Positions 8,228 through 43,050 of a stretch of DNA of 64,000 nt are shown here, piece after piece. The notes under the pieces are model-generated. The model was not told the DNA's origin. It saw only the letters and a program-made list of their open reading frames with translations, and ran no database searches. The position numbers and the translations under genes are program-made. The DNA is from Aristaeella lactis (GTDB taxonomy: Bacteria > Bacillota > Clostridia > Christensenellales > Aristaeellaceae): positions 1,364,001 through 1,428,000 of the forward strand of contig NZ_CP069421.1 of NCBI RefSeq assembly GCF_018118585.1, given 5' to 3'. How positions within the stretch are numbered: position 1 is the stretch's first letter; the number at the start of each line of letters is the position of its first letter.

Positions 8228-8279
8228 GCTGCTCACTCCACTTCACAGATATATACCTCGTTATGCTGAAAGTATATAT

Positions 8280-8318
8280 CATTTTTCATTCTTCATTTTT
8301 CATTGTTCATTTTTCATT
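8280..8318. repeat. 7-bp-period CATTNTT repeat tract at the hisD 3' end
   Basis: The tract reads as CATTTTT/CATTCTT/CATTGTT units with a 7-base period. The hisD stop (8307-8309) falls inside it, so the last hisD codons (NEK) are repeat-encoded. A hairpin directly abuts it (8319-8348). Confidence 0.85.
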
Positions 8319-20118: not shown

Positions 20119-20179
20119 TTTTATTCCCCTCTCTGAAGAATGCATCCCGCATCTTCATTTTCTGTTTTTGGCTTCAGTA

Positions 20180-20220
20180 TTAATTGTTCATTGTTCATTG
20201 TTCATTGTTAATTGTTCATT
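20180..20220. repeat. 7-bp-period TTGTTCA tract after padR
   Basis: The tract comprises about six TTGTTCA/TTGTTAA units. It starts directly after the gene-end inverted repeat of padR (20221-20243) and precedes the DUF4097 gene. Confidence 0.85.
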
Positions 20221-21310: not shown

Positions 21311-21351
21311 ATTTAATTCTTCATTTTTCATTGTTAATTGTTAATTGATTA
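21311..21351. repeat. Degenerate 7-bp-period tract after apt
   Basis: Units of TTCATTT, TTCATTG and TTAATTG extend right up to the apt stop codon (21352). They have the same period and words as the tracts at 8280 and 20180. Confidence 0.75.
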
Positions 21352-25952: not shown

Positions 25953-27509
25953 TCAGTTCCTCCCTTCATCTTCCGTTGTTTGGGCAGCGGACAGTCCCTG
26001 TTCCGTCAGCCGGAGTACCCTGCCGGGCCAGTCCCTGATCAGCAGCCGGTCATGGGTTACACAGATCACGGCACCCGGAAAGCTGCGGATCATATCCCGC
26101 ATCACCGGTGCGGAAAGCGGGGAAAGATTCCGCGTGGGTTCATCCATCAGCAGCACATCCGGATGCGCCATCATCAGTTTGAGCAGGAGCACTTTCGCTT
26201 TCTGCCCGCCGGACAGGGACCGGATCGGATGTTCCAGTTCGTCCCGGGAAAACTTCATGGCGATCAGGGAAGCCCGGATGGAAGTCATCTGCTCCTTGCT
26301 GCCGTCTGTATTCAGGTATTCCACCGGCGTCATGGAAAAGTCCAGTCCTTCCTCATAGTGCTGGGGCATCAGGGCCGTCTTCAAACTGGAATCCTGCTTC
26401 AGTTTCTCTTCGATCTGCCGTAACAGGGTCGTTTTGCCTGTGCCGTTGCTGCCGGTGATCAGCACCTTTTCGGAGCCCCGGATCTGCAGGTGCAGATCCT
26501 CTGCCAGTGTCCTTTCCCCGACGGACAGCCGGTCCAGGTCCAGGTCCAGCACATGCTTTCCGCCCGGAACCGGCTGGATATCGGAAAACAGCGCGTACAT
26601 GGAGAGTTCCTCCGCCGGTTTTTCAATGGCGGATTTCTCTTCCCGTTCATAGCGGTGTTCCAGGCTTTTGACCGCTTTCATCTTCTTTTTCAGCAGCCTG
26701 CCGCCATGGGGATCCTGGCGGGAGATATTCTCCTGTGCCCTGGTAACGGCATCCTCGATCTTTCTGAATTTTTCCTCCCGGATCCGCCGTTCCCTTTGAT
26801 CGTTTTTCCAAAGCTGTTCCTGCCGGTCCAGCTGGTCCCGCCGGTTCCGGACGTATACCGCGTAGGGTTCCTTTGTCCAGGTCCATCTGGGTTCAGCCCG
26901 GCCGTGCAGGGATTCCAGGTGAAGCACCTGGGTAGCGGTCGCCTGCAGCAGCCCCTCGTCATGGCTTACATACAGTACCGGCAGTTCACAGGAGAGCAGG
27001 AAACGTTCCAGCGCCAGGATCGCGTCCAGGTCCAGGTCGTTGCCCGGCTCATCCAGCAGCAGCATGGTGGGCTGCTCACAAAGGAGCAGCAGTAGGCGCA
27101 GTCTCACCTTCTCCCCGCCGGAAAGCAGGCCAAAACAGGTTTCCGACCAGCAAAGCTCCTGATCCATGGACAGTTTCCGGCAAAGCTCAGCCAGGTCTCC
27201 GGGATCCGTATCCGTGAACGCCGGGTTTCCCATGCAGAGCGTATAAGCCGGCAGGTCATTCCACTCCGTCGGAGCTTCCTGGGCCAGGTAGCCGATTTTT
27301 TCGCCCGGATAATGGATATTTCCGCTGATCTCCGCCCACTGCCTCAGCCTGTCCGGACAGGCAATGGCCTGCAGCAGGGCGGATTTTCCGTTCCCTTCCT
27401 CTCCGATCACGGCAAGGCGTTCATTGCCGGCCAGCGTAAAGGAAAGATCTTTGATCAGCGGTCTTAAGTCTTTGTTATGAAGAATGGATAGATTTCGAAC
27501 TGTTAGCAT
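25953..27509 (-). CDS. ABC-F ribosome-associated ATPase (antibiotic-resistance type)
   Basis: The protein has 518 residues. There are two ABC domains with no membrane segments: Walker A GEEGNGKSALL with signature LLSGGEKVRLR, and Walker A GSNGTGKTTLL with signature RSLSGGQKAKV. A charged helical linker of about 80 residues (the P-site tRNA interaction motif region) joins them. The size and the leader architecture match target-protection ABC-Fs (Vga/Lsa/Msr/VmlR type). Those displace ribosome-bound antibiotics. Which drug class cannot be read from sequence. The start is the ATG at 27509 with GGAGG eight bases before. The upstream leader holds a three-codon frame and a terminator. Confidence 0.88.
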   Translation of the reverse strand: MLTVRNLSILHNKDLRPLIKDLSFTLAGNERLAVIGEEGNGKSALLQAIACPDRLRQWAEISGNIHYPGEKIGYLAQEAPTEWNDLPAYTLCMGNPAFTDTDPGDLAELCRKLSMDQELCWSETCFGLLSGGEKVRLRLLLLLCEQPTMLLLDEPGNDLDLDAILALERFLLSCELPVLYVSHDEGLLQATATQVLHLESLHGRAEPRWTWTKEPYAVYVRNRRDQLDRQEQLWKNDQRERRIREEKFRKIEDAVTRAQENISRQDPHGGRLLKKKMKAVKSLEHRYEREEKSAIEKPAEELSMYALFSDIQPVPGGKHVLDLDLDRLSVGERTLAEDLHLQIRGSEKVLITGSNGTGKTTLLRQIEEKLKQDSSLKTALMPQHYEEGLDFSMTPVEYLNTDGSKEQMTSIRASLIAMKFSRDELEHPIRSLSGGQKAKVLLLKLMMAHPDVLLMDEPTRNLSPLSAPVMRDMIRSFPGAVICVTHDRLLIRDWPGRVLRLTEQGLSAAQTTEDEGRN

Positions 27510-27527
27510 ACACAACACCTCCGGTGA

Positions 27528-27594
27528 GGCGTCAAACCCGGAAACAGATCGGCACGAAAAAAAGCCGGAAGCTGCGCTCCGGTATTTTGACGCC
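27528..27594 (-). promoter_or_regulatory. ABC-F leader: terminator enclosed by a second long stem
   Basis: On the minus strand, GGCGTCAAA (27594-27586) can pair with TTTGACGCC (27536-27528), enclosing the terminator hairpin at 27582-27557. The distal arm ends just upstream of the ABC-F ribosome-binding site (27518-27522). Mutually exclusive folds between this stem, the terminator and an upstream AAACCGC hairpin would make a classical attenuator. Confidence 0.6.
27557..27582 (-). terminator. Leader terminator of the ABC-F gene
   Basis: On the minus strand CCGGAGC-GCA-GCTTCCGG (one bulged T) is followed by CTTTTTTT. It lies about 48 bases upstream of the ABC-F start codon and downstream of the promoter, so it must be read through for expression. 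Confidence 0.75.
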
Positions 27595-27640
27595 CGAAAT
27601 AAACCGCCTGTTCAGCGGTTTCCTCTGACATCAAAATCCG

Positions 27641-27652
27641 TTATTTGCGCAT
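27641..27652 (-). CDS. Three-codon leader ORF (Met-Arg-Lys-stop) upstream of the ABC-F gene
   Basis: ATG CGC AAA TAA is preceded by a purine-rich GGGGCGGGAAG ribosome-binding site. It begins about 25 bases after the predicted transcription start. Very short leader frames upstream of a terminator are the known regulatory element of ribosome-protection ABC-F and Erm genes. A drug-stalled ribosome at such a frame would change leader folding. Existence as a translated element is inferred, not shown. Confidence 0.5.
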   Translation of the reverse strand: MRK

Positions 27653-27683
27653 CTTCCCGCCCCTCTCATCAATCGTTATTTAC

Positions 27684-27712
27684 ATCCTACCATTCGTTTC
27701 AGCTTCTGTCAA
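27684..27712 (-). promoter_or_regulatory. Promoter of the ABC-F leader
   Basis: A perfect TTGACA (27707-27712) and TAGGAT (27684-27689) are 17 bases apart on the minus strand. Confidence 0.75.
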
Positions 27713-27756: not shown

Positions 27757-27825
27757 CCAGTAACTATCACATCGCAGCCGTGCACGGCTGCGATATTTCA
27801 CATCCCGCGCAGCGGGATATTTCAC
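27757..27825. repeat. Hairpin array A (two stems joined by ATTTCAC)
   Basis: The array opens with CCAGTAACTATCAC. Stem 1 is ATCGCAGCCG/CGGCTGCGAT with loop TGCA (27771-27794). Then come ATTTCAC, stem 2 ATCCCGC/GCGGGAT with loop GCA (27802-27818), and ATTTCAC. It is the same layout as array B, about 70 bases downstream. Confidence 0.9.
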
Positions 27826-27892
27826 TTACAATATACTGTTTCCTTTCAATACCCTGACTGACAAGAAACGTCTCTTTTTCATTCCCTTGTCC

Positions 27893-28013
27893 CCAGTAAC
27901 TATCACATTTTGCCGAAGGCAAAATATTTCACATTTCCCGAAGGGAAATATTTCACATTGAGCCGTAGGCTCAATATTTCACATCGCAGCCGTTTACGGC
28001 TGCGATATTTCAT
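27893..28013. repeat. Hairpin array B (four stems joined by ATTTCAC)
   Basis: It opens with CCAGTAACTATCAC, as array A does. Stems are ATTTTGCC (27907-27925), ATTTCCC (27933-27949), ATTGAGCC (27957-27975) and ATCGCAGCCG (27983-28006), each perfectly self-complementary with 3-4-base loops. Between stems the linker is always ATTTCAC. Stem sequences differ but pairing is kept; the last stem equals stem 1 of array A. The array lies downstream of the xre gene and upstream of the ABC-F promoter. Confidence 0.92.
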
Positions 28014-28015
28014 TG

Positions 28016-28079
28016 GGAATACGCGGTCGATGAGGATGAAACGCTCACGTTTCAGCTTTCCTCATCATCCGCGTATTCC
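28016..28079 (-). repeat. Large inverted repeat spanning the xre stop codon
   Basis: GGAATACGCGG pairs with CCGCGTATTCC, GATGAGGA with TCCTCATC, and TGAAACG with CGTTTCA, separated by small internal loops (26 bp total, loop CTCA). One arm is the coding sequence for the C-terminal EYADDEES and stop. The other arm is its mirror downstream. Confidence 0.9.
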
Positions 28080-28264
28080 AAAATTTCTCCCGGCTGGCAC
28101 TTCAGCACCTTGCAGATCGCGTTCAGTGTTGAAAAGCGCACCGCGCTGATCTTTCCGGTTTTCATCTTTGACAGGTTAACGTTTGCCACGCCCACCTTTT
28201 CGGAAAGCTCGTTCAGCGACATTTTCCTGTCCGCCATTACCCTGTCCAGGCGTAAAATAATCAT
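28052..28264 (-). CDS. Small XRE-family HTH regulator (YozG-like)
   Basis: The protein has 70 residues, almost entirely a Cro/C1 helix-turn-helix: LDRVMADRKMSLNELSEKVG, then VNLSKMKTGKISAVRFSTLNAICKVLKCQPGEIL. It matches the YozG-type regulators that are paired with DUF2975 membrane proteins. The start is the ATG at 28264 with GGCGGTGAGC upstream, 13 bases after the DUF2975 gene. Its stop codon lies within a large inverted repeat. Confidence 0.9.
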   Translation of the reverse strand: MIILRLDRVMADRKMSLNELSEKVGVANVNLSKMKTGKISAVRFSTLNAICKVLKCQPGEILEYADDEES

Positions 28265-28277
28265 ATGCTCACCGCCT

Positions 28278-28835
28278 TCACAGCGTCTCGTCTGATTCCT
28301 GCTGCAGCTTGCAGCCATAGTTGAACACATAGGCTATGATCATCAGCACCACACCCAGGATAAGCACGGAATAGATGAACGGATAACCCAGATCCATATA
28401 TCCGTCTGATTTCACGAAGTTTCCCCCGTTTTTCGAGATCAGTTCAACAACCGTCCTGTAAACGAGACTGATGATTCCGAGCAGTATGGCAAGGAACCCG
28501 GCGCCTTTGATCTTGTCCGCGATATCGTAGCAGAAGGGTGTTTCCGCGGTTCTCAGCCGACGGAAAATGTGTCGTGCCGCATTCCACAGCAGGGCAATGC
28601 CGCCCAGCACCAGGAATACATATATCACTGAAACCAGTACCGAAGGAATATCTGCTTTTCCCCCGTTGTTCCGGTACTGGATGGCCTGGACAATCGGCAC
28701 GATAAGGCAGAAAACAGCAGCGGCAGCGAACAGGACGCACATAAGCGTACTGAAAATATGCATTATCTTGCAGAATTTTTCATACCGGCCTTTTTCCTGT
28801 GCCAGCGTTCTTTCCATAATGTCCGTTGTTTCCAT
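28278..28835 (-). CDS. DUF2975 membrane protein
   Basis: The protein has 185 residues. There are four predicted membrane helices (about 28-50, 72-92, 118-142 and 155-175). The layout and partner gene match the DUF2975/YoaS family, always found with a YozG-like regulator. The function of the pair is not established; an inhibitory membrane partner for the regulator is one idea. The start is the ATG at 28835, behind AAGGAGG. Confidence 0.85.
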   Translation of the reverse strand: METTDIMERTLAQEKGRYEKFCKIMHIFSTLMCVLFAAAAVFCLIVPIVQAIQYRNNGGKADIPSVLVSVIYVFLVLGGIALLWNAARHIFRRLRTAETPFCYDIADKIKGAGFLAILLGIISLVYRTVVELISKNGGNFVKSDGYMDLGYPFIYSVLILGVVLMIIAYVFNYGCKLQQESDETL

Positions 28836-42960: not shown

Positions 42961-42990
42961 GCCATTATTCATTATTCATTATTCATTTTT
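42961..42990. repeat. 7-bp-period CATTATT tract after helD
   Basis: CATTATT units (about four) lead into a run of TTAAG words (TTTTTAAGTCTTAAG). It lies between the helD hairpin and a small TTTCCGG hairpin just before the next ribosome-binding site. Confidence 0.8.
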
Positions 42991-43050
42991 AAGTCTTAAG
43001 TTTTAAGTAATTTCCGGCCTCAGCCGGAAATCCCATACAAGGAGGCCCCC

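Follow-up and report, generated by a model that had tools for sequence, protein, structure and literature searches.

The focal hairpin array, which lies in a window of 64,000 nucleotides from Aristaeella lactis (the window being the whole stretch of DNA that was analysed), is best read as one copy of a dispersed, non-coding hairpin-array repeat that is listed in Rfam as Gut-1 RNA. We take the element to be a structured repeat of the Gut-1 family that is dispersed and evolves in an unusual manner. The element is dispersed in the genome, has a fixed layout, changes more slowly in its stems and linkers than its surroundings do and has been gained or lost at the focal locus; at fixed sites, single hairpins are deleted and hairpins or whole arrays are replaced. 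With regard to its role, we give a probability of about 0.5 to a REP-like hairpin repeat that is selected for structure and kept at gene 3′ ends, where it ends or protects the transcript. The Gut-1 family is already named in Rfam; what is new here is the description of the element, not the category.

Hairpin arrays at the focal locus

Two arrays are present in the window, one with two hairpins (27757-27825) and one with four (27893-28015), and on re-reading the sequence the coordinates and layout given in the initial annotation proved right. Both begin with the head CCAGTAACTATCAC, every linker is ATTTCAC and all six stems are perfect, with 7 to 10 bp including closing AT pairs, so that the shared head, the self-complementary stems and the invariant linker noticed earlier are confirmed. 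The stems are not all different, as had been stated: hairpins 1 and 6 have the common stem ATCGCAGCCG/CGGCTGCGAT and differ in the loop alone (TGCA and TTTA), which leaves five stem types. Folded as DNA, array 2 reaches -30.8 kcal/mol compared with -8.8 (sd 2.3) in 200 dinucleotide shuffles (z -9.8), and its RNA fold has a z of -8.7. The features of the locus are:

27757..27770, plus strand: head of array 1, CCAGTAACTATCAC (genus consensus AGTAACTATCAC)
27771..27794, plus strand: hairpin 1, 10-bp perfect stem, loop TGCA
27795..27801, plus strand: linker ATTTCAC
27802..27818, plus strand: hairpin 2, 7-bp perfect stem, loop GCA (GNA type)
27819..27825, plus strand: linker/tail ATTTCAC of array 1, then TTACA
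27893..27906, plus strand: head of array 2, CCAGTAACTATCAC
27907..27925, plus strand: hairpin 3, 8-bp perfect stem, loop GAA (GNA type)
27926..27932, plus strand: linker ATTTCAC
27933..27949, plus strand: hairpin 4, 7-bp perfect stem, loop GAA (GNA type)
27950..27956, plus strand: linker ATTTCAC
27957..27975, plus strand: hairpin 5, 8-bp perfect stem, loop GTA (GNA type)
27976..27982, plus strand: linker ATTTCAC
27983..28006, plus strand: hairpin 6, stem as in hairpin 1, loop TTTA
28007..28015, plus strand: tail ATTTCATTG of array 2, joins the gene-end hairpin
28013..28082, minus strand: long gene-end hairpin, its 5′ arm (gene strand) being the 3′ end of the HTH gene with the stop codon
27921..28015, minus strand: match to Rfam RF01706 Gut-1 RNA, array 2, 49.9 bits (gathering score 50), E 1.9e-8
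27759..27846, minus strand: match to Rfam RF01706 Gut-1 RNA, array 1, 30 bits, E 0.002, below the cut-off
28052..28330, minus strand: upstream gene (ORF as listed), Cro/C1-type HTH, PF13443
28278..28886, minus strand: DUF2975 gene, PF11188, 27.9 bits (cut-off 27)
25953..27518, minus strand: downstream gene, two stretches of ABC ATPase (PF00005); the label "ABC-F" comes from the initial annotation

The tail of array 2 ends about 37 nt past the stop of the HTH gene, and the reported gene context holds, with the DUF2975 and Cro/C1 HTH genes upstream and the two-domain ABC ATPase gene downstream. Upstream of the ATPase gene, window positions 27519-27700 are strongly alike in four relatives and contain, by eye, a GCCGGAAGC...GCTCCGG hairpin and a short minus-strand reading frame; this segment looks like a predicted leader-peptide attenuator.

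Family identity and distribution

The initial annotation knew of no named element with this layout; the arrays match the Rfam family Gut-1 RNA (RF01706; PMC2864571), which they resemble in sequence and structure, with hairpins joined by GUGAAAU. An Infernal search matched array 2 to Gut-1 RNA on the strand opposite to ATTTCAC, at 49.9 bits and so marginally under the gathering score of 50. Aligned to the family, the best copy of the genome has the same hairpin type and GUGAAAU linkers on the modelled strand, and the linker counts and the focal sequence agree with this arrangement. In the part of the source that was available, Gut-1 is an RNA of human gut sequences only, noncoding and not cis-regulatory (PMC2864571). 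A literature search for the accession RF01706 yielded nothing beyond that paper and one for the name "Gut-1 RNA" yielded none; in titles and abstract beginnings of the literature on hairpin and palindrome repeats, which included papers on REP, we found no description of Gut-1-type arrays.

The genome-wide search that the initial annotation had called for returned many copies, and the pattern is not unique to the focal locus. With 150 of 361 candidates scored, this genome contains at least 57 Gut-1 matches, at least 22 of them over the cut-off. The motif ATATTTCACAT occurs 110 times in the genome and once in the form of the reversed control, and our array finder detected 63 arrays in 344,638 real bases, taken from stretches picked for holding the motif, and none in the same bases after mononucleotide shuffling. 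The arrays had been held not to be CRISPR, and rightly: instead of identical repeats with unique, non-palindromic spacers, their variable parts are palindromes that recur in the genome.

With part of the candidates scored, Gut-1 matches were found in at least 14 of 81 genomes (this one and 80 relatives) and in at least 46 of 291 genomes from the class, this one included; the match in an E. coli control genome was below the cut-off. Most matches to the linker pattern in the genome and viral contigs look like chance. Chains of at least three hairpins were present in 17 of 114 genome loci among the matches listed, and the contigs bearing them are titled Clostridia, Ruminococcus or Oscillospiraceae MAGs. 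In viral contigs, searched for the ATTTCAC linker only, 106 loci match the pattern, four of them with chains of at least three hairpins and none with a GN(N)A loop; a phage origin is unsupported for this linker, as the viral contigs gave no such arrays.

Anatomy of the arrays

The arrays were analysed in 38 stretches of this genome and 55 of the congeners G022, G035 and G001, all chosen for holding the motif. The unit of about 110-120 nt consists of a head, usually four perfect hairpins on 7-nt linkers, and a tail, with the consensus AGTAACTATCAC for the head and ATTTCATT for the tail (90 arrays of at least four hairpins). Defined by chained hairpins, 165 arrays were obtained, of which 44 have two hairpins, 31 three, 89 four and one five; the array of five is in L043, where the additional hairpin seems to be a stem formed by chance within the head. 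On the ATTTCAC strand the linkers read ATTTCAC (329), ATTTCAT (149), ATATCAT (52), ATATCAC (10) or otherwise (2). Stems recur, the 542 hairpins having 210 distinct 5′ arms. Other families use linkers which include ATATCACT and ATATAACT, in rows of up to nine hairpins. A stem that closes the unit between head and tail was rejected, the mean run being 3.87 bp compared with 3.93 for shuffled partners (90 arrays). By eye, another dispersed repeat (AAGCAGTGCGAAGCGCTCC, GATTGAGGTTGCG) interrupts or abuts hairpin arrays in L041, L015, L016, L019 and L024, and a repeat GTCATCCTGAGC...GAAGGATC lies beside several arrays. A family that was listed in 2010 as a noncoding RNA thereby gains an anatomy: a four-hairpin unit at gene ends, of which the structure is kept and the sequence replaced.

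Change between species

Close species (G022, G035 and G001) were compared in pairs in which the compared flank is at least 90% identical. The 41 close ortholog array pairs, which have members in common and are thus not independent, differ by 0.035 (stems), 0.028 (linkers), 0.100 (loops) and 0.080-0.086 (flanks). Stems and linkers hence differ 2-3 times less than flanks, in support of the constraint on structure that had been proposed from the focal sequence. In the close pairs, the stems are unchanged in 103 of 118 ungapped hairpins, and in 12 of 23 changed base pairs both arms have changed with pairing kept; some of these two-sided changes look to sit in hairpins that were replaced rather than mutated. 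The arrays offer a natural multi-copy system in which selection on structure can be separated from selection on sequence.

Single hairpins are lost at linkers (arrays 92 and 133; L088 and L133), and in the pairs 98/118 and 83/105 hairpin 1 and everything upstream of it are replaced while hairpins 2-4 are kept. Even the linker type differs at one site, being ATTTCAC in arrays 122 and 164 and ATATCAT in their partners 77 and 126 (77/122; 164/126), and L024 compared with L083/L123 is a case of same-site hairpin turnover. Of 37 comparisons of this genome with relatives, 26 gave an array close to the site and 24 one of unchanged orientation, the latter (24/37) being a biased estimate of site retention since the ortholog loci were picked for holding arrays. 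The stems of such same-site arrays, where printed, are mostly unrelated. In species further apart than the close ones, a site thus often retains an array that consists of other hairpins and in some cases has another linker. We propose that the unit spreads and is remodelled by exchange between copies at shared linkers or hairpins, possibly in single-stranded DNA; an exchange at linkers would fit the break points observed.

The DUF2975 gene of the focal locus has relatives in G001, G007, G022 and G035, out of the other 44 genus genomes searched. By eye, gene order and the long gene-end hairpin are retained in each of these four, and none of them has an array. The focal array was therefore gained in this lineage or lost in others. 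That stems would be preserved as palindromes in relatives, as anticipated initially, is true of other orthologous loci, and the focal locus is without an array in the four relatives found. The long gene-end hairpin (window 28013-28082 and L409-L412) is present in these relatives, so that the array is not needed for it. A gene-end hairpin beside an array can also vary in step: in L117 and L130, again by eye, its coding arm changes with the last four amino acids unchanged, and the other arm follows.

Placement at gene ends

Genes were called with a simple codon-usage caller, which missed for example the small HTH gene at the focal locus. In this genome, a gene precedes the tail on the Gut-1 strand in 47 of 57 arrays, the other 10 having no same-strand gene ahead. 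The question whether copies occur at gene 3′ ends, raised in the initial annotation, can mostly be answered with yes, as 39 of the 57 tails lie at most 100 nt from a same-strand stop. The unit typically has a gene-end hairpin as its neighbour there. In gaps between co-directional genes, hairpin arrays are nearer the stop in 26 of 35 cases.

The arrays resemble intrinsic terminators in placing hairpins right after stop codons. They differ from them in having usually four hairpins in a row, a constant linker and no U-tract; instead of a GC-rich stem followed by a U-tract, there are linkers in which a run of T reaches three at most, whichever strand is read. A U-tract terminator was recognised at 7 of 39 array-bearing gene ends and at 66 of 158 without an array (Fisher p 0.006), a comparison that is partly biased as the array itself takes up the greater part of the 150 nt that were searched. 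Terminator-like hairpins with a T-run stand next to the array in some other Clostridia (L159, L191 and L224; by eye). The deficit and the bordering hairpins fit either a substitution of arrays for the terminator or an insertion beside one.

Short palindromic extragenic repeats in many copies are known as REP, BIME and REPIN elements, associated with RAYT, and roles in termination, mRNA stability or supercoiling have been proposed for them, according to the parts of the reports considered here (PMC3733652, PMC6006769, PMC3116915). Gut-1-type arrays are likewise short palindromic extragenic repeats in many copies. By analogy with REP/BIME, a row of hairpins in the transcript of the upstream gene may end or protect this transcript, and the array would be kept at gene ends for this reason. 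In favour of this reading, the stem foot has an additional U.G pair on the transcript strand (468 of 542 hairpins, and 64 of 75 in four other families). It counts against our main reading that the type of loop and the wobbles inside stems favour the strand opposite to the transcript. Unlike in REP/REPIN, a GTAG, GTGG or CGTC tag at most 6 nt 5′ of the stem, on either strand, occurs in only one of 542 hairpins, stem sequence is not conserved (210 distinct 5′ arms), the mostly unlike hairpins stand in direct rows of four, and there is neither a consistent link to a Y1 transposase nor, in this genome, a cognate RAYT flanked by the repeat.

Which strand folds

Evidence on the folding strand is split: the loops favour the ATTTCAC strand and DNA mini-hairpins, whereas a conserved U.G pair favours RNA of the other strand. 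On the ATTTCAC strand, 254 of 348 triloops are GNA and 4 the complement TNC, with a C-G closing pair in 325 of the 348; counted over 202 distinct triloop hairpins, the numbers are 126 and 3. Tetraloops follow with 74 GNNA and 3 TNNC out of 152. GNYA exceeds GNRA (54 and 20), and such an excess suits DNA better than RNA. In four other families we counted 56 GN(N)A, 1 TN(N)C and 18 other loops (20 stretches, chains oriented by the linker, two ambiguous chains left out; several stretches have no chain of three). Internal single mismatches point to the same strand, with 19 G.T, 6 A.C and 12 others in 384 distinct hairpins (p 0.015); a larger G.T count (34 vs 8 of 60) includes repeated orthologs and outermost pairs, and the count from 384 hairpins is preferred. 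A mutational strand bias was rejected as the cause of the G.T excess, for substitutions in the flanks on the same strand are 125 C>T and 117 G>A.

On the Gut-1 strand, 468 of 542 hairpins have a U.G pair directly outside the perfect stem and 419 of 542 have A-U as the pair after that, which gives an RNA of this strand longer stems, joined by GAA. The four other families likewise have a U.G pair at the stem foot (64 of 75 hairpins), a count that refutes the assumption that their linkers exclude it. As a strand test folding energy was rejected; among 89 four-hairpin arrays, RNA parameters make the ATTTCAC strand the more stable of the two in 6 and DNA parameters do so in 37. What results is a concrete strand question, with DNA-type loops on one strand and a stem-foot wobble pair on the other.

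It is possible, though we consider it doubtful, that Gut-1 is what the catalogue says, a discrete small noncoding RNA from the strand of the upstream gene that acts as RNA itself. The Rfam match lies on this strand, the U.G and A-U extension and the U.G pair of the other families are in favour of it, and so is the small number of arrays (6 of 89) with a more stable ATTTCAC strand under RNA parameters. However, the U.G pair may reflect the constant linker alone, and GNA triloops and internal mismatches point to the other strand. Gut-1 as listed, in the available part of its source, is a noncoding RNA of the human gut only (PMC2864571), whereas here we deal with a dispersed repeat of mostly two to four hairpins, with hairpins swapped between orthologous sites and loops that indicate the opposite strand.

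We consider it unlikely that the arrays are primarily a repeat of single-stranded DNA, in which the ATTTCAC strand as a string of stable DNA mini-hairpins would be the substrate of a mobile or recombination process and any host role secondary. GNA and GNNA loops on G-C pairs are described as unusually stable, nuclease-resistant DNA mini-hairpins in the part of the source at hand (PMC4686876), and the focal family and the other families share this loop type. The modular swaps of hairpins between orthologous arrays point in the same direction. Orientation likewise follows the replichore: the GC skew, taken from the 38 stretches, changes sign at 0.58-1.03 Mb (terminus side) and 2.35-2.68 Mb (origin side), and in 52 of 57 arrays the G-rich strand is that of Gut-1, a share above the 182 of 277 for genes (Fisher p 5e-5). 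By the same skew, however, the ATTTCAC strand is not the lagging-strand template, which is the strand used by IS200/IS605-type elements. The stem-foot U.G pair favours the other strand, DNA folding energies fail to separate the strands, and the loop bias is weaker in named Clostridia, with 44 GN(N)A and 14 TN(N)C in 17 loci among the matches listed (L151 and L256 being reversed). Between 581 kb and 1,028 kb of G000 C1 (about 447 kb, the putative terminus), neither a linker nor a Gut-1 match was present among the matches listed (linkers ordered by position up to 3.08 Mb; 57 Gut-1 matches), with both sides dense. The best DnaA-domain match (G000 C1:1306829-1307311) lies far from the origin estimated by GC skew near 2.5 Mb.

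Candidate enzymes for mobility

Y1_Tnp genes occur in 28 of 45 genomes, in array-rich and array-free congeners alike, and the lack of a matching enzyme counts against our main reading. By eye, the four in this genome have no array within 1.5 kb, which speaks against the single-stranded-DNA reading. In favour of the latter, the distance between a Y1 gene and an array is about 0.95 kb in G001 (C35:9442-10801) and 2.4 kb in G022 (C1:3258974-3261812); this is one orthologous locus and the sole nearness noticed. As a mobiliser, RAYT has no consistent support, the presence of Y1 not tracking the arrays. RVT_1 has no match in the array-rich genomes G000, G001, G022 and G035, and four in the array-bearing G004; the four array-rich genomes rule against host reverse transcription by RVT_1.

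Heptamer repeats in the gene-end slot

In the relatives without the focal array, the slot is occupied by a 7-nt tandem repeat in G001, G035 and G007 (scores 23-24 of 25) and by about one copy in G022 (score 11), the slot score used being reached by 3.5% of 400 background windows. Four further array-less comparisons (three loci, with the gene end aligned close by) have heptamers in the slot in three cases (L011 with L095 and with L102, L023 with L092) and none in L015 with L128. In the array loci and the window together (902,180 bases, the window overlapping two loci) there are 148 period-7 tandem repeats, 71 of them of 31-34 nt; the same bases give one repeat at periods 8-13 and 5, 1 and 17 at periods 4, 5 and 6. 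A 100-kb piece of G035 that was chosen by position contains two period-7 repeats; 200 kb of G044, a congener without a Gut-1 match, and 100 kb of G078 contain none. The heptamer repeats are not nearer gene 3′ ends than starts (20 of 36 co-directional gaps), compared with the 26 of 35 for hairpin arrays.

Heptameric direct repeats have been described in Beggiatoaceae (TAACTGA; PMC4679880) and in Xanthomonas (GGGAATC, the majority with four units; PMC4692102), and share with ours the 7-nt period, the few copies and the intergenic position. As presented in the parts of these papers considered here, one sequence is repeated with no hairpins between units, whereas in our arrays the heptamer links one hairpin to the next, and repeats of naked heptamers, in many different sequences, are found alongside. 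No report of a combination with hairpins was found in the literature on heptameric repeats.

As a speculative and rather improbable extension, the gene end in this clade may provide a slot of about four steps that is filled either with naked 7-nt repeats (often about 32 nt) or with four DNA mini-hairpins joined by 7-nt linkers; one process that copies single strands would make, swap and size-limit both, and the host would use the filled slot as a transcript-end element. If true, the heptamer link would point to a repeat-making process in gut Clostridia. That template switching keeps making and repairing both palindromes and 7-nt repeats as a functionless by-product of replication in tolerant gene-end DNA is very unlikely. 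In its favour, period-7 repeats are common in the array-bearing genomes (71 of 148 having 31-34 nt) and in some relatives take the place of the array. Against it, change is slower in stems and linkers than in flanks, arrays have an upper limit of about four hairpins and the congener G044 lacks such repeats in 200 kb.

The window itself contains six 7-nt tandem repeats of 28-34 nt (795-826, 2796-2829, 8277-8304, 20176-20209, 21316-21347 and 42963-42994), each overlapping a gene 3′ end or at most about 42 nt from one. They are part of the clade-wide period-7 excess, and repeats of this kind can occupy the slot of a hairpin array.
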